From Actinomycetota bacterium (GTDB lineage: Bacteria > Actinomycetota > Actinomycetes > Actinomycetales > Microbacteriaceae), in NCBI GenBank assembly GCA_009704605.1, contig WLDW01000018.1, forward strand, positions 1-10,599: DNA of 10,599 nucleotides. Direction: 5' to 3'. Of the stretch, positions 1,189 through 7,835 are shown piece by piece. Position numbers and translations under genes: made by a program. Position 1 is the first letter of the stretch; the number at the start of each line of letters is the position of its first letter. Below the pieces are notes generated by a model, which worked only from the letters and a program-made list of their open reading frames with translations, ran no database searches and was not told the DNA's origin.

Positions 1189-2820
1189 TTGACAAAAGTT
1201 CGCAATCGCTGGGTAGGACTTGTTTTCATATCCATGGCCATATCCCTCGTGATTATCGATGGCACAATCGTAAACACCATTTTTCCCTCCATTATTAATG
1301 ACCTAGGTCTTACCTCAACTGAGGTTCAGTGGGTTCAGGAAAGCTACGTTCTAGTCTTTGCTTCCCTTCTTCTGGTTTGGGGTTCACTCGCTGACAGGTT
1401 TGGTCGAAAGCGCCTGCTGAGCATTGGAATCATAATTTTCATCCTCGCTTCGGTTTGGGCTGGGGTTGCGGAAACATCGAATGTCTTAATTCTTGCCAGA
1501 GTCATCCAGGGCATCGGTGGCGCGATGGTGCTTCCAACTACCCTGTCTCTTCTTAATGCCACCTTCCAAGGTAAAGAACGCGGAATTGCGTTTGCTGTCT
1601 GGGGTGCCACCATCGGTGGCATGGTTGCTGTTGGTCCAGTTCTTGGTGGCTGGCTGGCAACTGACTTCAGCTGGCGTTGGGCCTTTGGTGTCAACTTGCC
1701 ACTGGGAATCATTATCTTGATGGGTCTTGCATATTATGTTTCAGAATCTAAAGCACCACAGCGTGCCGGCGGTATTGACTTTATTGGTGCAGCTATCTCG
1801 GTAGTAATGTTCTCAACATTGGTTTTTGGTCTAATTGAAGGCCGCATCTATGGCTGGTGGGAAATCAATCCAAACAACCAGTTCCAAATTGGTAACTTTG
1901 CCTGGCCCACAACAGGAATCTCAGTTATCCCGATAGCGCTACTTATCTTTGTGGTTTCTGCGGTGGTTTTTGTTCTTTGGGAAAGAAGGCGTGAGGCCGA
2001 GAAGAAGAACGTGCTTTTGGACTTGGGGCTATTCAAGATCGGTTCGTTTAGAAACGGTTCGATAGCTGCACTGATTATCTCTATGGGAGAGTTTGGAATC
2101 TTGTTTGCGATTCCGCTTTGGTTGCAGAACGTAATTGGCCTTAGCCCAATTTCTTCCGGTTTAGTTCTGCTATGGCTAGCGGCCGGAGCATTCTTGGCCT
2201 CCGGTGTTGGTGGTGCCCTAAGTGGCAAGCTACCGCCGGCAAGAGCAGTTCAAATAGGTGTCGGGCTTGAGCTCATTGGAGTTTTGGGTGTAGCCCTCTT
2301 TGCCTCCACCGAAGCTGGCTGGGCAATTCTTGCGCCGTTCTTGTTCCTTTATGGAATAGGTATTGGTTTAGCTACCGCTCAGCTAACGGGAGTAATCATG
2401 GTAGATGTTCCAATGACCAGCACCGGTCAAGCTTCTGGTTCGCAGTCAACTGTTAGACAAGTTGGCTCGGCTCTTGGTGTAGCTGTTCTTGGAACACTTT
2501 TGTTTACTGGAACACAGGTTTCCATGGAGCAAAGACTTAGTGATCTAGATGTTCCAAGTGCTCAAAGCGTTGTGTTAGTTGATGCTGTGGTTGATTCTGC
2601 AGGATCGGTTATTCCGCAACTAACTGATGGTCTTGTAGCGCAGCAGGTCCCCCAGGAACTAGCTGAGGACATAACAACAGCAGCCGGGGACGCCTTCACA
2701 GATGGTGCTAAGTGGGCAGCGTGGTCAGCGGCAGGATTCCTGCTCTTGGGCTTTGCCTCTACTTTCTATCTTGGTTCACTAAAGACCAAAACCAAGCGCA
2801 AGTCAGCCAAGAAGAGCTAG
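1189..2820 (+). CDS. DHA2-family (EmrB/QacA-type) 14-helix MFS exporter
   Basis: This is an integral inner-membrane drug:proton antiporter of the major facilitator superfamily, 543 residues, the usual size for the 14-helix DHA2 group. Visible motifs are D1 in helix 1 (D24-GTIVN, then P33), motif A between helices 2 and 3 (G65-x-LADRFGRKR, 65-75), motif B (R104-VIQGIGGAM) and antiporter motif C in helix 5 (GPVLGGWL, 149-156). A conserved later stretch runs from GVIMVDVP (401-408) through STGQASGS to TVRQVGSALG (421-430). A hydrophilic loop at about 445-508 precedes the last helix, and the C-terminus is lysine-rich (532-542). The start is TTG 1189, with AGGA at 1180-1183 five bases upstream; the next Met (residue 16) would cut into helix 1. 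The substrate cannot be told from sequence. Confidence 0.93.
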   Translation: MTKVRNRWVGLVFISMAISLVIIDGTIVNTIFPSIINDLGLTSTEVQWVQESYVLVFASLLLVWGSLADRFGRKRLLSIGIIIFILASVWAGVAETSNVLILARVIQGIGGAMVLPTTLSLLNATFQGKERGIAFAVWGATIGGMVAVGPVLGGWLATDFSWRWAFGVNLPLGIIILMGLAYYVSESKAPQRAGGIDFIGAAISVVMFSTLVFGLIEGRIYGWWEINPNNQFQIGNFAWPTTGISVIPIALLIFVVSAVVFVLWERRREAEKKNVLLDLGLFKIGSFRNGSIAALIISMGEFGILFAIPLWLQNVIGLSPISSGLVLLWLAAGAFLASGVGGALSGKLPPARAVQIGVGLELIGVLGVALFASTEAGWAILAPFLFLYGIGIGLATAQLTGVIMVDVPMTSTGQASGSQSTVRQVGSALGVAVLGTLLFTGTQVSMEQRLSDLDVPSAQSVVLVDAVVDSAGSVIPQLTDGLVAQQVPQELAEDITTAAGDAFTDGAKWAAWSAAGFLLLGFASTFYLGSLKTKTKRKSAKKS

Positions 2821-2851
2821 CTCTCTTATCCGTGAAACTCAGGCGCGAGCC

Positions 2852-2882
2852 TAGACTAAAAGCAATAACCATTACGAAGGGG
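2852..2882 (+). promoter_or_regulatory. Putative heliorhodopsin promoter (-10) and ribosome binding site
   Basis: TAGACT at 2852-2857 fits a TANNNT -10, predicting transcription from about 2864 and a leader of roughly 27 bases. The leader contains a strong Shine-Dalgarno, GAAGGGG (2876-2882), eight bases before the ATG at 2891. The 70-base gap from the exporter stop contains no convincing terminator, so readthrough from the exporter is also possible. Confidence 0.4.
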
Positions 2883-2890
2883 TATCACTG

Positions 2891-3694
2891 ATGGCACAGA
2901 AAAAGCGCTCAGTTGCTGAGCAAATCAAAAGACTAAGAACTTACAACATTGTTGCGGGTTTGTTGCACTTGTTCCAGGCCGTAGCTTTTGGCTACGCACT
3001 ATCGCTACTGGATAACCAAGTTCTGTTTGGCACCACAGTTGATTACATGACAGGCCCTCCGGGCTCACCACTACCAACTGAGCGCGTAGTTCTTTTCGAG
3101 GTAAACCTTGGAATTGGAGTAGTGGCCTTCTTAGCTCTATCGGCTTTCTTCCACTTCTTGATTTCTTCCCCCCAGTTCTTTGGAAAATACTCCAAGGGTC
3201 TGAAACAAAACCGGAACTACTTCCGTTGGGTCGAGTACTCCCTGAGCTCATCAGTAATGATTTGGCTTATTGCCCAGCTAACTGGAATCTCTGATTTCTC
3301 AGCACTGGTAGGTATCTTCGCGGTAAACGCCTCGATGATTTTCTTTGGAGCCCTGCAGGAGAAGTACGAAACTCCTGGAAACGGCCAAGGCTTGCCATTT
3401 ATCATGGGATCCATCACCGGAATTGTTCCTTGGATCCTTATCGGTGTCTACACCTTGCAGCCAGGCTCCACTAGCGCGGCAGAGGTTCCAGGATTTGTTA
3501 TCGGAATCATTATTTCGCTCTTTGTGTTTTTCAACACCTTCGCAATCAACCAGGCGTTGCAATACAAGCAGTGGGGTTCATGGGCAAACTACCTAAAGGG
3601 AGAAAGAACTTACATAACTCTTTCTTTGGTAGCCAAGAGCATTCTTGCTTGGCAAGTATTCTCCGGAGCAATCATTCCGGCCCTTACCGCCTAG
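2891..3694 (+). CDS. Heliorhodopsin
   Basis: This is a seven-helix retinal-binding membrane protein of the heliorhodopsin family, 267 residues, a normal length. The retinal Schiff-base lysine is K249 in the last helix, in SLVAKSILAWQ (245-255). The likely counterion is E115, in FRWVEYSLSSS (111-121), the family's helix-3 signature. Other recognised residues are H26 (GLLHLFQ), H88 (FFHF), E157 (LQEKY) and Q255; E115, H88, E157 and K249 all sit a constant eight positions after their counterparts in 48C12 as I remember it. The lysine/arginine-rich N-terminus (K4, K5, R6, K13, R14, R16) agrees with the family's inverted, N-inside topology. The helix A-B loop carries GPPGSPLP (55-62). Typical members are slow-photocycle light sensors rather than pumps, and partners are poorly known. 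The start is supported by GAAGGGG. The DoxX-like gene follows nine bases later. Confidence 0.96.
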   Translation: MAQKKRSVAEQIKRLRTYNIVAGLLHLFQAVAFGYALSLLDNQVLFGTTVDYMTGPPGSPLPTERVVLFEVNLGIGVVAFLALSAFFHFLISSPQFFGKYSKGLKQNRNYFRWVEYSLSSSVMIWLIAQLTGISDFSALVGIFAVNASMIFFGALQEKYETPGNGQGLPFIMGSITGIVPWILIGVYTLQPGSTSAAEVPGFVIGIIISLFVFFNTFAINQALQYKQWGSWANYLKGERTYITLSLVAKSILAWQVFSGAIIPALTA

Positions 3695-3703
3695 ATAAAT
3701 AGA

Positions 3704-4117
3704 TTGAAATTAGCTCGACTGCTAGCGAGGGTGGCACTTGGTGCCGCCCTCGTTTATGCAGGAATCGGACACCTTACATTTTTACGTCAAGAGTTCCAGG
3801 CCCAAGTTCCGGTATGGCTACCACTGGATCCAGACTTTGTAGTTTTGGCCTCTGGTGCTGTTGAGATAACTCTTGGCCTTGGACTGCTGAGCGCTGGACG
3901 CATTGCTTCTTACTTCGGAATCGTTACGGCACTGTTTTTTATCGCCATCTTTCCTGGCAACATCAACCAATATGTCGAAGGTATCGACGCTTTTGGTTTA
4001 GACACCGACCAAGCCAGGCTCACCCGATTGTTTTTCCAGCCTCTATTAGTTGCCTGGGCACTATGGTCCACTTCGGCTATCGGAGTTCTCAAGAAGTTGC
4101 TCTCTAGATCCAAATAA
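3704..4117 (+). CDS. DoxX-like small membrane protein
   Basis: A 137-residue protein with about four membrane segments (roughly 7-25, 46-63, 70-86, 110-128). Family-like motifs are AGIGHL with H23, QVPVWLP (34-40), SGAVEITLGLGLL (50-62) and FPGNINQYV (83-91), matching the DoxX/DoxX-like superfamily layout. Members are named after a thiosulfate:quinone oxidoreductase subunit and some take part in oxidative-stress complexes; most have no known activity. It begins nine bases after the heliorhodopsin stop, so the two are very likely co-transcribed. The start taken is TTG 3704-3706, with no clear Shine-Dalgarno in front, suggesting translation coupled to the upstream gene. A GTG at residue 10 is an alternative but would shorten helix 1. 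The tail is basic (K130, K131, R135, K137). Confidence 0.8.
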   Translation: MKLARLLARVALGAALVYAGIGHLTFLRQEFQAQVPVWLPLDPDFVVLASGAVEITLGLGLLSAGRIASYFGIVTALFFIAIFPGNINQYVEGIDAFGLDTDQARLTRLFFQPLLVAWALWSTSAIGVLKKLLSRSK

Positions 4118-4123
4118 CGCCCT

Positions 4124-4134
4124 TAGAATTAGGG
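4124..4134 (+). promoter_or_regulatory. Possible short-leader promoter for the TerC-like gene
   Basis: TAGAAT (4124-4129) fits TANNNT and ends nine bases before the ATG at 4139, which would give a near-leaderless transcript. The AGGG at 4131-4134, four bases from the ATG, could instead be a weak ribosome binding site for readthrough from the DoxX-like gene. The two readings are not exclusive. Confidence 0.3.
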
Positions 4135-4138
4135 TCTT

Positions 4139-5131
4139 ATGGATTCCCCCTCATACTTCTGGTTTCAGGCTATTTCCTCTGGTGTTTTAGTGACAATACT
4201 GATCGCAGATCTGCTTCTAGCGGCAAAACGTCCACACATCCCCTCCGCCAAAGAATCAGCAGGCTGGGTCGGTTTCTACGCTGGACTGGCTTTGGTGTTC
4301 GCAGCTGTCCTCTGGCTGCTAGTTGGTCACATACAAGCAACCGAGTTCATTGCCGGTTGGCTAACAGAGTATTCACTCTCAATTGACAACTTGTTCGTTT
4401 TTGTTCTGATCATGTCCAGATTTGCTGTTCCAAGGATTTATCAACAGCAGGTGCTGATGGTTGGAATCATTATGGCGCTAGTTCTTCGAGGTTTGTTTAT
4501 CCTGGTTGGGGCAGCCCTTATTGAACAGTTCAGTTGGATCTTTTACCTCTTTGGTGCCTTCTTGCTATACACCGCCTATCACCAGGCATTCCGAACACAC
4601 GAGGATGAACATCAAACCGAGTCGAAGCTAGTTCAACTTCTTCGTAAGCGAGTACATGTTTCTGACGACTTCGATGGTGCAAAGCTAACAACAGTTGTAA
4701 ATGGTCGCAGGGCCTTTACGCCGATGCTTGTGGTGTTTGCGGCCATTGCAATCACAGATGTGATGTTTGCCTTTGACTCAATTCCAGCAATCTTTGGTAT
4801 CACAACAGATCCCTTCATTGTCTTTACAGCAAACCTGTTTGCGCTGATGGGTCTTCGCCAGTTGTACTTCTTACTGGGTGGGCTACTTGACCGGCTTGAA
4901 TATTTGAAGTATGGAATCTCATTTATCTTGGCGTTTATTGGTTTCAAGCTGATCACACATGCGATGCATGTGAATGAGCTGCCATTTATCAACGGCGGAC
5001 AACACATTGAGTGGGCTCCAAACATCGATAGCATCACTTCCCTCGGGGTGATTGTTGCCTCTATTGCGGTTTCAGCAATTGTGAGCGTTATTGCAGCAAC
5101 TTCACAGAGTAAGAAAGAGCAGAAGAGGTAG
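4139..5131 (+). CDS. TerC/Alx-family membrane protein (probable metal exporter)
   Basis: A 330-residue integral membrane protein with the two TerC-family acidic signatures: EYSLSIDNLFVFVLI (E77, D83, N84) in the first half and TDVMFAFDSIPAIFGI (D207, D213) in the second. About seven to nine hydrophobic helices are visible, with a charged cytoplasm-like loop at 151-190 (HEDEH, then the basic LLRKR). Family members in E. coli (Alx) and Bacillus (the YceF/YkoY group) act in manganese export, and the name comes from tellurium resistance; the substrate here is inferred from family only. The ATG at 4139 lies 21 bases after the DoxX-like stop. No yybP-ykoY manganese riboswitch fits in that gap. The peptidase-like gene follows after two bases, indicating one transcript. 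Confidence 0.92.
   Translation: MDSPSYFWFQAISSGVLVTILIADLLLAAKRPHIPSAKESAGWVGFYAGLALVFAAVLWLLVGHIQATEFIAGWLTEYSLSIDNLFVFVLIMSRFAVPRIYQQQVLMVGIIMALVLRGLFILVGAALIEQFSWIFYLFGAFLLYTAYHQAFRTHEDEHQTESKLVQLLRKRVHVSDDFDGAKLTTVVNGRRAFTPMLVVFAAIAITDVMFAFDSIPAIFGITTDPFIVFTANLFALMGLRQLYFLLGGLLDRLEYLKYGISFILAFIGFKLITHAMHVNELPFINGGQHIEWAPNIDSITSLGVIVASIAVSAIVSVIAATSQSKKEQKR
5121..5128 (+). promoter_or_regulatory. Ribosome binding site inside the end of the TerC-like gene
   Basis: AGAAGAGG (5121-5128) forms the last codons of the TerC-like gene and sits five bases before the ATG at 5134. It fixes that start and shows that the two genes are translated from one message. Confidence 0.65.
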
Positions 5132-5133
5132 CC

Positions 5134-6792
5134 ATGAGAGACAAGTCCGCGATAGACAACCTGGCAGATAGCTACCTAGCGCAATTGGCTGCCAACTACC
5201 CAAGTTTTGCCACCAGCATCGGCCTGGCCTCTGGCGCGGCAGACATGGACGATTACTCCCCCGAGGCCATTGAGCGAGATCTAAAACTAGACCAATCGAC
5301 CCTTTCAGCTCTTCAAGCCTTAGAGCCTAGAGATGATGTTGACCAAGTAACCAAGGACGCCCTTAGCCAGCAGCTAATTCTGGATATCGAATTACACGCT
5401 GCGGGATTGCAGTACAGAGACTTGAATAACATCGCATCTCCTGCCCAAGGCATTAGAGATGTATTTCATGTCTCCCCGACCGCCACCGTGACCGATTGGG
5501 AGAACCTTGCCTCAAGAATGCGAAAAGTCAAAGATTCCCTTGTCGGCTACCAAAAGACACTAACGATTGGATTTGAAAAAGGTGACGGGCCAGCAAAGCG
5601 TCAGTTGCAAGAAGTGATTACCCAAGTAGGGCAGATTAATCAGCCTGAGGGTTTCTTCCATGAGTTCGCCAAAGGCGCCACAGCCGATCAGGAGCTCTCT
5701 ACAGCCCTGCGCGAGGAATTAGTTGCTGCTGCTCAAGTCGCCACCGATGCCTACGCAGCATTTGGAGATTTTCTAAAAAGTATGCTGCCAAAGGCTAGCG
5801 AGCAAGACGCTATCGGTCGAGAAAGATACCGATTACTTAGCAAGAGTTTCCTAGGCGCAGAAATTGATCTTGATGAGACTTACAAGTGGGGTATAGAAGA
5901 ACTAGCCCGCGTGGTAACCGAGCAAGAAGCTGTTGCTAAAGAGATCCTTCCTGGAGCAAGCGTTGCAGAGGCGATTGCTCATTTGGAGAACTATCCGACA
6001 ACCAAGCTGCATGGCACTGATGAATTACAGAAGTGGATGCAACGCCTAAGCGATAAGGCCATTGAAGATCTTGGAAAGACGCATTTTGACATTGCAGAGC
6101 CTCTTAGAAAGCTCGAGTGCATGATCGCACCAACCAAGCACGGAGGAATTTACTACACCGGTCCAAGCGATGATTTCTCCAGACCGGGAAGAATGTGGTG
6201 GTCTGTTCCTGATGGTGTCGAATCTTTCGATACTTGGCGTGAAACCACAACCGTTTATCACGAAGGAGTCCCTGGTCACCACCTACAGGTAGCACAAGCT
6301 ACGTATATACGCGAAACTCTAAACGATTGGCGTCGCTTGGCTTCATGGACCTCCGGTCACGGCGAGGGCTGGGCGCTTTATGCCGAGCGCCTAATGGATG
6401 AACTTGGTTACCTTGCAACTCCTGCAGATCGTCTTGGAATGCTAGATGGCCAGCGAATGCGAGCTGCTCGAGTCGTTCTGGATATTGGAGTGCACCTAGG
6501 TAAGCCAAAACTGGATGGGACTGGGGTTTGGGACTTTGACTACGCACTTGAGTTCATGTCAAAAAACGTGAACATGAGTCCAGAGTTTGTCCGCTTTGAG
6601 GTGACCAGATACTTTGGTTGGCCAGGACAAGCCCCAAGCTACAAAATTGGTCAGCGGATTTGGGAACAAATCCGAGATGACTACCAGGCTCGCAAGGGTT
6701 CCGAGTTCGATATGAAGAAGTTCCACTCAACGGCACTGAACCTGGGTGGCTTAGGGCTGGACGCTCTCAAAGAAGCGATGTCTAGGGCCTAG
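5134..6792 (+). CDS. DUF885-family putative zinc metallopeptidase
   Basis: A 552-residue soluble protein of the DUF885 family, close to the usual length. The key signature is HEGVPGHHLQ (H376, E377, H382, H383), the HExxPGH variant of a zinc-peptidase motif with one residue more between the first His-Glu and the second His than classical HExxH. It is followed by the downstream acidic segment GHGEGWALYAERL (408-420, E411 the likely third ligand), as in gluzincin-like enzymes. Other conserved parts are GIYYTGPS (338-345) and RYFGWPGQAPSYKIG (nucleotides 6607-6651). The N-terminal ~200 residues are mostly helical and lack a signal peptide, so it is probably cytoplasmic. Substrates are unknown; peptides are likely. 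The start has AGAAGAGG five bases upstream, overlapping the preceding gene. Confidence 0.9.
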   Translation: MRDKSAIDNLADSYLAQLAANYPSFATSIGLASGAADMDDYSPEAIERDLKLDQSTLSALQALEPRDDVDQVTKDALSQQLILDIELHAAGLQYRDLNNIASPAQGIRDVFHVSPTATVTDWENLASRMRKVKDSLVGYQKTLTIGFEKGDGPAKRQLQEVITQVGQINQPEGFFHEFAKGATADQELSTALREELVAAAQVATDAYAAFGDFLKSMLPKASEQDAIGRERYRLLSKSFLGAEIDLDETYKWGIEELARVVTEQEAVAKEILPGASVAEAIAHLENYPTTKLHGTDELQKWMQRLSDKAIEDLGKTHFDIAEPLRKLECMIAPTKHGGIYYTGPSDDFSRPGRMWWSVPDGVESFDTWRETTTVYHEGVPGHHLQVAQATYIRETLNDWRRLASWTSGHGEGWALYAERLMDELGYLATPADRLGMLDGQRMRAARVVLDIGVHLGKPKLDGTGVWDFDYALEFMSKNVNMSPEFVRFEVTRYFGWPGQAPSYKIGQRIWEQIRDDYQARKGSEFDMKKFHSTALNLGGLGLDALKEAMSRA

Positions 6793-6815
6793 GCCAAGGA
6801 TCCTGGTGCTAACCT
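6786..6815 (+). promoter_or_regulatory. Extended -10 promoter giving a leaderless hydrolase mRNA, with nearby palindromes
   Basis: TGC-TAACCT (6807-6815) is an extended -10 (TGN-TANNNT) ending exactly six bases before the ATG at 6822, so transcription should begin at or next to the start codon. No Shine-Dalgarno precedes that ATG, which supports a leaderless message. Just upstream are two perfect palindromes, GGCCTAGGCC (6786-6795, containing the peptidase stop codon) and AGGATCCT (6797-6804), which sit where a -35 or an operator would be. Confidence 0.5.
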
Positions 6816-6821
6816 TTTGTC

Positions 6822-7835
6822 ATGCGCGCATCAAAGTGGATAGCAATAACAGCCGGAGTTTTAGTTGTCATCGTTTCCGGTGGCGCACTTGCCGCCGGTG
6901 AATACGTTTACACCTCAGGAACCGTGGTTCCATGTGCAATAAACGAGGATGACTTAGCCAACTCCCCTGAGGCTTTTTATACCCCCGCTTCTGGAAACGG
7001 TCCTTTCCCGGGATCTGGTTGGGACAAGTGGGTTGATTACGATCTAAGCGCTTGGTGGCTAACTGACAACAACTATGACGCGGTTGAGATACCGGTCAGC
7101 GAAGAAGTTACTCTTTCAGCCTGGTGGATTGAGCCAGAGGTTTCCAATGGAAAAACAGTTATTGTCACCCACGGTATTGGCACTTCACGAAGAGATTTCA
7201 ACGCGCTACTTCCGTCCGCCATGCTGGTAAAAAATGGTTTCCAGGTACTACTAGTTGACACTCGTGACACCGGAGAATCCACCTGCACCGACGGTCGTCA
7301 CTCGGCGGGTCAAGAAGAATCAACAGACTTTGCAGCCGTTGCCGATTGGTTAATAGACTCCAAGGGTGTCAAGCCGGAATCGCTTGGCATGTACGGGGTC
7401 TCTGGCGGAGCTGTAGCAACGTCACTACTTCCCGCAAAGACCGAGAATGTTTCGGCCTTCGCGATGGAGGGAACAATCTTTGATTTCAATGCTGCTGCGA
7501 CTAGAGAAGTTGAGTTCCAGGGCTTTCCTGGTTTCTTGTGGCAACTGGCTCAAATCTCCGCTCAACTGTTTCACGGCGTGAACCTGACCGAAACTTCAGT
7601 AATGCAAGGAATTGAGGCTGCCGGTGATCGACCGATGCTTATTCTTCACGGGGATGTCGATCAGAGGCTGGATTATCAGTCATCGGTGGACTTCTATAAC
7701 TACGCCAAACAGCAGGGATCCGATATCACACTTGAGACCTTTAAGGGCTCTGATCATACAGAGGGAATGCTTAAGGAGACCCAGCGATACGCGGATTTAC
7801 TATCGGGCTTTTTTGATAGGGCACTAACTAAGTAG
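6822..7835 (+). CDS. Exported or membrane-anchored alpha/beta hydrolase
   Basis: A 337-residue serine hydrolase of the alpha/beta fold. An N-terminal hydrophobic segment (about 6-26, after R2 and K5) is a signal peptide or anchor, placing the enzyme outside the membrane. The oxyanion-hole strand is VIVTHGIGTS (113-122), the nucleophile elbow is MYGVSGGA with S194, the probable acid is D280 in LHGDVD (275-280; D278 is an alternative), and the catalytic His is H312 in GSDHTEG (309-315). The stretch LLVDTRDTGES (143-153) is also typical. Two cysteines (C38, C155) in the exported part could form a disulfide. The insert at about 45-95 is rich in aromatic residues. The substrate cannot be named: esterase, lipase or peptidase are all open. 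It appears to have its own leaderless promoter. Confidence 0.88.
   Translation: MRASKWIAITAGVLVVIVSGGALAAGEYVYTSGTVVPCAINEDDLANSPEAFYTPASGNGPFPGSGWDKWVDYDLSAWWLTDNNYDAVEIPVSEEVTLSAWWIEPEVSNGKTVIVTHGIGTSRRDFNALLPSAMLVKNGFQVLLVDTRDTGESTCTDGRHSAGQEESTDFAAVADWLIDSKGVKPESLGMYGVSGGAVATSLLPAKTENVSAFAMEGTIFDFNAAATREVEFQGFPGFLWQLAQISAQLFHGVNLTETSVMQGIEAAGDRPMLILHGDVDQRLDYQSSVDFYNYAKQQGSDITLETFKGSDHTEGMLKETQRYADLLSGFFDRALTK

Follow-up and report, generated by a model that had tools for sequence, protein, structure and literature searches.

The window, by which we mean the whole stretch of 10,599 nucleotides that was analysed, contains a heliorhodopsin gene (heR) on the forward strand at positions 2891..3694. 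The gene is a single intact ORF with an ATG start codon at 2891 and a stop codon at 3692-3694, and it encodes 267 aa. Profile searches placed its product over the cut-offs of both PF18761 of Pfam (310.2 bits, cut-off 26.7, E 1.1e-92) and the NCBIfam equivalog NF038020 (332.3 bits, cut-off 100, E 1.7e-99), with each model covered nearly end to end, and E values of this size exclude a chance match. A chance ORF or a pseudogene was considered as well and was ruled out by the one unbroken ORF in which every compared residue is retained. As the initial annotation had proposed, the product of 2891-3694 is a heliorhodopsin. Heliorhodopsins are widespread light-absorbing membrane proteins whose purpose is unsettled.

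Further genes follow heR on the same strand. A TTG codon 9 bp after heR starts doxX (3704..4117), which encodes a DoxX-like membrane protein of 137 aa. After another 21 bp comes terC (4139..5131), encoding a TerC/Alx-family metal homeostasis membrane protein (Pfam TerC, 175.8 bits; TIGR03718, 362.3 bits). With their common strand and gaps of 9 and 21 bp, heR, doxX and terC form a putative single unit. The genes for a DUF885 protein (5134..6792, 2 bp after terC; Pfam, 524 bits) and an alpha/beta hydrolase (6822..7835, 29 bp after the DUF885 gene; Pfam Peptidase_S9, 57.5 bits) are candidate members of the same unit. The window's DoxX-like protein scored 21.9 bits against Pfam DoxX, under the gathering cut-off of 23.6. 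Since its homologue at locus L087 also fell short (21.5 bits) and that at L088 passed (31.6 bits), DoxX-like is the safe name. Of 299 genomes sampled across the family, 177 had a DoxX homologue.

An MFS transporter gene lies 70 bp upstream of heR. The sequence preceding heR contains TAGACT (2852..2857, forward strand), a candidate −10 element for the heR transcription unit, and GAAGGGG (2876..2882, forward strand), the likely heR ribosome-binding site, which ends 8 bp before the ATG. TAGACT and AAGGGG are the main blocks common to the aligned upstream regions of the window and two close relatives, L002 (uncultured Micrococcales) and L003 (Rhodoluna sp. MAG), whose heliorhodopsins are 82-83% identical to that of the window. 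In all three, TAGACT lies 27-33 bp ahead of the start codon, even though the sequence farther upstream and the upstream genes differ. We counted TAGACT in the 86 of 89 loci that had sufficient sequence before heR and whose match began at residue 1. Within the stretch 28-60 bp before the ATG it occurred in 3 of these 86 regions (0.33 expected), and the three were the window, L002 and L003, which form one clade on the heliorhodopsin tree (99/93). A scan of 2700-7000 for sigma-70 promoters and terminators gave chance-level results only (3 versus 3.6 expected and 5 versus 4.7, respectively) and did not flag TAGACT. Because TAGACT and AAGGGG are kept in the three loci despite differing upstream genes, we infer that heR probably has its own promoter and leads its transcription unit.

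The heliorhodopsin of the window and 48C12 share 148 of the 253 residues aligned by HMMER (58.5% identity). The three best sequence matches among solved structures were 48C12 or an identical sequence (6su3, E 2.4e-86; 9ljj; 6uh3), followed by three other heliorhodopsins (6is6, 7clj and 9vfc). All six signature residues named in the initial annotation were recovered, namely (window/48C12) H26/H23, H88/H80, E115/E107, E157/E149, K249/K241 and Q255/Q247. The constant eight-residue offset that it had described for the later residues also held, being +8 from H88 onward, with H26 at +3. The five extra residues of the window protein appear as alignment gaps of 3, 1 and 1, located between helix A and the end of ECL1. 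K249, claimed in the same annotation to be the Schiff-base lysine of helix 7, aligned with K241 of 48C12 and falls in the final long helix of the fold model described below (H234-266). Its codon is 3635..3637 (forward strand), and lysine occupies this position in 89 of 89 sequences. The protein has both the Schiff-base lysine of helix 7 (K249) and the glutamate counterion of helix 3 (E115).

We compared 21 positions of 48C12, those named in papers or in the initial annotation, and all 21 are identical in the window protein. The proton relay of 48C12, as far as given in the available part of PMC9726877, includes N16, Q26, S76, Y92, R104, S111, E230, S237 and W246, and each of these residues is identical in the window heliorhodopsin. 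The same is true of the H23/H80 proton cluster and of the E149/E230/R104/Y92/N16 network (network per the same source). When the window heliorhodopsin was aligned with 88 relatives (89 sequences), 15 of 18 checked positions were invariant; the others were Q29 (88 of 89), L126 (88 of 89) and W254 (87 of 89).

An AlphaFold2 model of the heR product was built with only 20 aligned sequences and had a mean pLDDT of 83 and a pTM of 0.81. Its long helices are H8-38, H73-92, H110-130, H136-159, H168-189, H201-226 and H234-266, and short helices were predicted at 94-105 and 229-232. Two strands (E45-52 and E64-72) lie at the place of the 48C12 ECL1 hairpin, a loop described in PMC6951262. The model has seven helices and the ECL1 beta hairpin in common with 48C12 (PDB 6su3, 6su4 and 6uh3; 9ljj aligns identically). 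The best Foldseek matches in the PDB were seven chains of 48C12 or its sequence (TM by query 0.84-0.88, the top 48C12 crystal structures reaching 0.87-0.88), and three archaeal heliorhodopsin entries came next (0.82-0.84). A type-1 rhodopsin was rejected: among the best 50 of 461 matches, type-1 rhodopsins had a TM by query of at most 0.64 and 9-15% identity, compared to 0.82-0.88 for heliorhodopsins. The amino acid sequence has a Lys/Arg-rich N-terminus and Lys/Arg-rich inner loops, which bears on its putative N-in topology, inverted relative to type-1 rhodopsins.

The bacteriorhodopsin proton donor D96 and residue D212 are replaced by L126 and S245 in the window heliorhodopsin, and 48C12 shows the same replacements (L118 and S237; PMC6951262). 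The viral heliorhodopsin V2HeR3 has been reported as a light-activated proton transporter (PMC9448325), and the window protein might likewise carry out light-driven proton transport. However, it is close to bacterial 48C12, in which neither pump nor channel activity was observed, and it matches the L118 and S237 that are cited to explain non-pumping (PMC6951262, available part); we therefore regard proton transport as very unlikely. The heR protein is an ordinary new member of a known family and, judging from that family, most likely a non-pumping signalling rhodopsin. We are fairly confident that this heliorhodopsin has a non-pumping sensory role.

The assembly that contains the window (G000) comprises 916 kb in 142 contigs, is rated 72% complete, and has one heliorhodopsin and one type-1 rhodopsin. 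The host is a small-genome aquatic-type actinobacterium; the nearest matches bearing a name came from a Rhodoluna sp. MAG and an uncultured Micrococcales bacterium, and Microbacteriaceae are numerous among the relatives. The type-1 rhodopsin (L082, G000:C70:3938-4609) scored 124.6 bits in a 254-aa frame that includes the helix RYVDWFLTVPLLLVE. By the motif rule we take the D-T-E of this helix to mark a proton pump, probably of the actinorhodopsin type. The retinal synthase gene blh (PF15461) was not found in this 72% complete genome, so that the chromophore may need an outside source. The search was able to detect blh, since 10 of the 48 heliorhodopsin genomes of the family scored over the cut-off. 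Phytoene synthase was not found in the assembly either, which may reflect an assembly gap because all six of the other genomes searched from the genus have it. Second or only-weak PF18761 matches (about 23-127 bits) were seen in several genomes of the family, among them G084, G139, G283, G248, G277, G066, G189, G275 and G235, and possibly constitute a divergent heliorhodopsin-like group.

The initial annotation had also held that each genomic context of a heliorhodopsin is informative, and here the context is indeed the only part that carries novelty: the heR-doxX-terC arrangement is new, while the protein family and the presence of TerC beside heliorhodopsin (PMC11109279) were already known. 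A doxX gene stands directly 3′ of heR in the window, in L002 and L003, and in one other genus (L088). In these same-strand pairs doxX starts at +10 (window), +7 (L002), +8 (L003) and +4 (L088) relative to the heR stop codon. L002 and L003 resemble the window in the order heR-doxX and in the upstream TAGACT and AAGGGG; unlike them, the window has terC after doxX.

We kept as relatives the best 80 of 420 matching stretches, and among these 80 a DoxX homologue was found in the flanks of six (L002, L003, L061, L069, L071 and L073). The arrangement varies. Loci of the g74 group have doxX upstream of heR with a gene between the two (PfkB in L069; DUF998, on the other strand, in L091), and in G104 doxX is divergent relative to heR. 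A separate sample was drawn from the family: 60 genomes had a PF18761 match, of which 12 with weak or partial matches (≤105.7 bits) were left out and 48 were used. The two samples overlap, as at least L061 and L089 (G189) share the same heR. DoxX homologues were contained in 34 of the 48 heliorhodopsin genomes. In six of these 34 (the window's genome G000, G104, G272, G189, G235 and G275) the distance between doxX and heR is no more than about 2.5 kb, compared to 0.12 expected under uniform placement, with DoxX and the distance threshold having been picked after the window was seen and with genes on different contigs scored as not near. Counted by genus, 4 of 16 genera show doxX near heR, and 3 of 15 do so when the genus of the window is excluded (P 1.8e-5, or 1.4e-4 if any genus member may score). 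Strict adjacency, i.e. the next gene on the same strand, occurs beyond the window's genus in one genome, G272, versus 0.008 expected. In the remaining 28 of 34 genomes doxX is not near heR, many of these being cases of separate contigs in a draft assembly. In other families of the order, 24 heliorhodopsin loci were searched for DoxX up to 1.5 kb from heR, and none had it; one of them (L109) has only 437 bp downstream. On a heliorhodopsin tree of 40 of the 89 sequences, chosen by hand, the doxX-near label needs 4 changes, 3 of them forced by well-supported branches. A DoxX tree, calculated as a test of joint transfer, had mostly weak branches and placed the window DoxX without clear grouping with the copies of its own genus. 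The finding that heR adjoins doxX more often than chance in related bacteria suggests a possible functional link.

DoxX genes were also encountered in other settings within the genus. In G249 (L093, 2683-3090) a distant DoxX_2 gene (47 bits) starts 142 bp after a divergent heliorhodopsin. In L131 (G092, 4436-7114) and L132 (G154, 4860-7538) doxX follows genes for a CrtI-like desaturase and a UbiA prenyltransferase, hinting at a carotenoid link. Neither genome has a heliorhodopsin match; the families were scanned in L131, where CrtI was below cut-off, and L132 was read by position.

None of the texts covered by a literature search pairs heliorhodopsin with DoxX, which the supplementary tables of the context studies may nevertheless list. 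In the texts as available, DoxX and rhodopsin occurred together only in an M. tuberculosis genome annotation, and no useful report on DoxX in actinobacterial oxidative stress emerged. A mycobacterial DoxX protein is described as part of a membrane oxidoreductase complex with SodA and SseA (PMC10943396, available part). The likeness to the window is a DoxX-family membrane protein, by family name; unlike in that complex, no SodA or SseA family match was found among the ten window proteins scanned.

Pairs of loci with and without heR were identified in two genera. In genus g67, G231 (L139) has a fumarase/aspartase-type lyase gene followed after 4 bp by doxX, and G272 (L088) has the lyase gene followed after 14 bp by heR and after another 3 bp by doxX. 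The two lyase genes share 79% DNA identity, and the doxX genes share 76% over a 280-base part; G231 is not one of the 60 genomes that matched heliorhodopsin. The example from the window's own genus is G010, which contains doxX-terC and has no heliorhodopsin match; its TerC and that of the window are 77% identical. These loci indicate that doxX also stands without heR and that heR comes and goes beside doxX. Neither doxX nor terC requires heR, as both are present without it in the same genus (L127).

The other genes of the window were also sought near the heliorhodopsin genes of relatives. In the available flanks of the best 80 of 420 relatives, which are incomplete since many contigs are short, no match was found for the SDR, DUF885, alpha/beta hydrolase, CNNM and LysE proteins, MFS had only distant matches in 3 of the 80 (24-29% identity), and UPF0114 was matched in 1 of the 80. 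Counts from neighbour clustering were set aside, as the naive gene caller placed heR in 62 of 81 loci and missed GC-rich ones. In G287 of the same genus, one stretch (L128, 5962-9650) contains homologues of the alpha/beta hydrolase, doxX, UPF0114 and lysE genes, and no match to heR, terC, DUF885 or CNNM was found there. Its gene content indicates that the region has been rearranged within the genus.

The patchiness of heR bears on how its neighbours are to be read. The protein could be a sensor with doxX and terC as chance neighbours, heR being readily gained and lost and landing in permissive operon gaps, and its partner being soluble or encoded elsewhere. Only 3 of 7 sampled members of the window's genus have heR, its own genome counted, and the neighbours differ even within the genus, being the ZIP transporter in L092 and the DoxX_2 protein in L093. 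Published partners, moreover, include glutamine synthetase and an ABC transporter, as far as the available parts of the sources go. Against chance, the recurrence of doxX exceeds the uniform-position model, and a distant DoxX-family gene also stands behind the divergent G249 heliorhodopsin. We give this explanation slightly less than an even chance.

The terC gene deserves separate consideration. TerC proteins are described, in the sources as available, as metal transport or metalation proteins. TerC is among ten frequent heliorhodopsin neighbours, and a TerC operon group has been published (Cho et al. 2024, PMC11109279), the only source in our literature search with heliorhodopsin and TerC together. 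As in that group, heR and terC of the window are near each other and on the same strand; the window differs in having doxX between them, and DoxX is absent from the main text of PMC11109279, as far as available. The partner could be TerC, with light modulating metal export or metalation and doxX merely lying between. Among the best 80 of 420 relatives, 7 have TerC no farther than about 1.5 kb from heR and two more have it at 3.9-5.9 kb; TerC is also near heR in 1 of 24 other-family loci (L104; L079 is a partial match) and in G181, the placements occurring in all four relative orientations. However, G000 and G181 are the only ones of the 48 heliorhodopsin genomes with TerC near heR, and the available flanks of the heR-doxX loci L002, L003 and L088 gave no TerC match. 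The heR-side TerC of Cryobacterium and Arthrobacter represents a different subgroup, sharing 36-43% identity with that of the window; its full-length copies share 65-73% identity with the one in L041, to which L077 aligns in two pieces only. We consider TerC as the partner unlikely. Another metal-transport neighbour was seen in G287, where a convergent ZIP metal transporter gene (L092, 3031-3858) adjoins the heliorhodopsin gene.

The reading that we prefer, and hold to be probable, is that heR encodes a functional heliorhodopsin serving as a light sensor or regulator rather than a pump, within a putative heR-doxX-terC unit. By analogy with 48C12, light would isomerise retinal on K249, and the Schiff base proton would reach first E115 and then the H88/H26 water cluster, with no net release. 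The helix bundle would then move, at W254 on the outside and at N19-Y100-E238-R112-E157 on the inside. Judging from the gene context, heR would lead the transcription unit heR-doxX-terC, and the light signal would most likely act on the co-made membrane proteins, DoxX first and TerC second. Both DoxX and TerC are tied elsewhere to redox or metal homeostasis. Whether either protein is the physiological partner of heR is nevertheless doubtful, because of the 28 genomes in which doxX is not near, the loci of other families without DoxX, and the intervening gene in the g74 group.

Partners named so far for heliorhodopsins include photolyase besides those mentioned above, in the available parts of the sources. 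A gene-context study of monoderms suggested a role of heliorhodopsins in mitigating oxidative stress (PMC8612252), and heR transcript levels increase in darkness in a different freshwater actinobacterium (PMC8591293), both sources being available in part. A more speculative proposal, which we think improbable, is that heliorhodopsin and DoxX make up a light-controlled membrane redox unit, to which TerC would add metal control in the window's species, heR having been inserted immediately 5′ of doxX more than once in this family because the two proteins cooperate. If this were true, heliorhodopsins would gain a redox partner undescribed in the literature searched. The protein alone adds one member to its family. 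The recurrent doxX neighbour, together with the pair of loci with and without heR, offers a small testable lead that would tie membrane redox or metal homeostasis to the sensing of light, in agreement with the oxidative-stress suggestion published for the family (PMC8612252).
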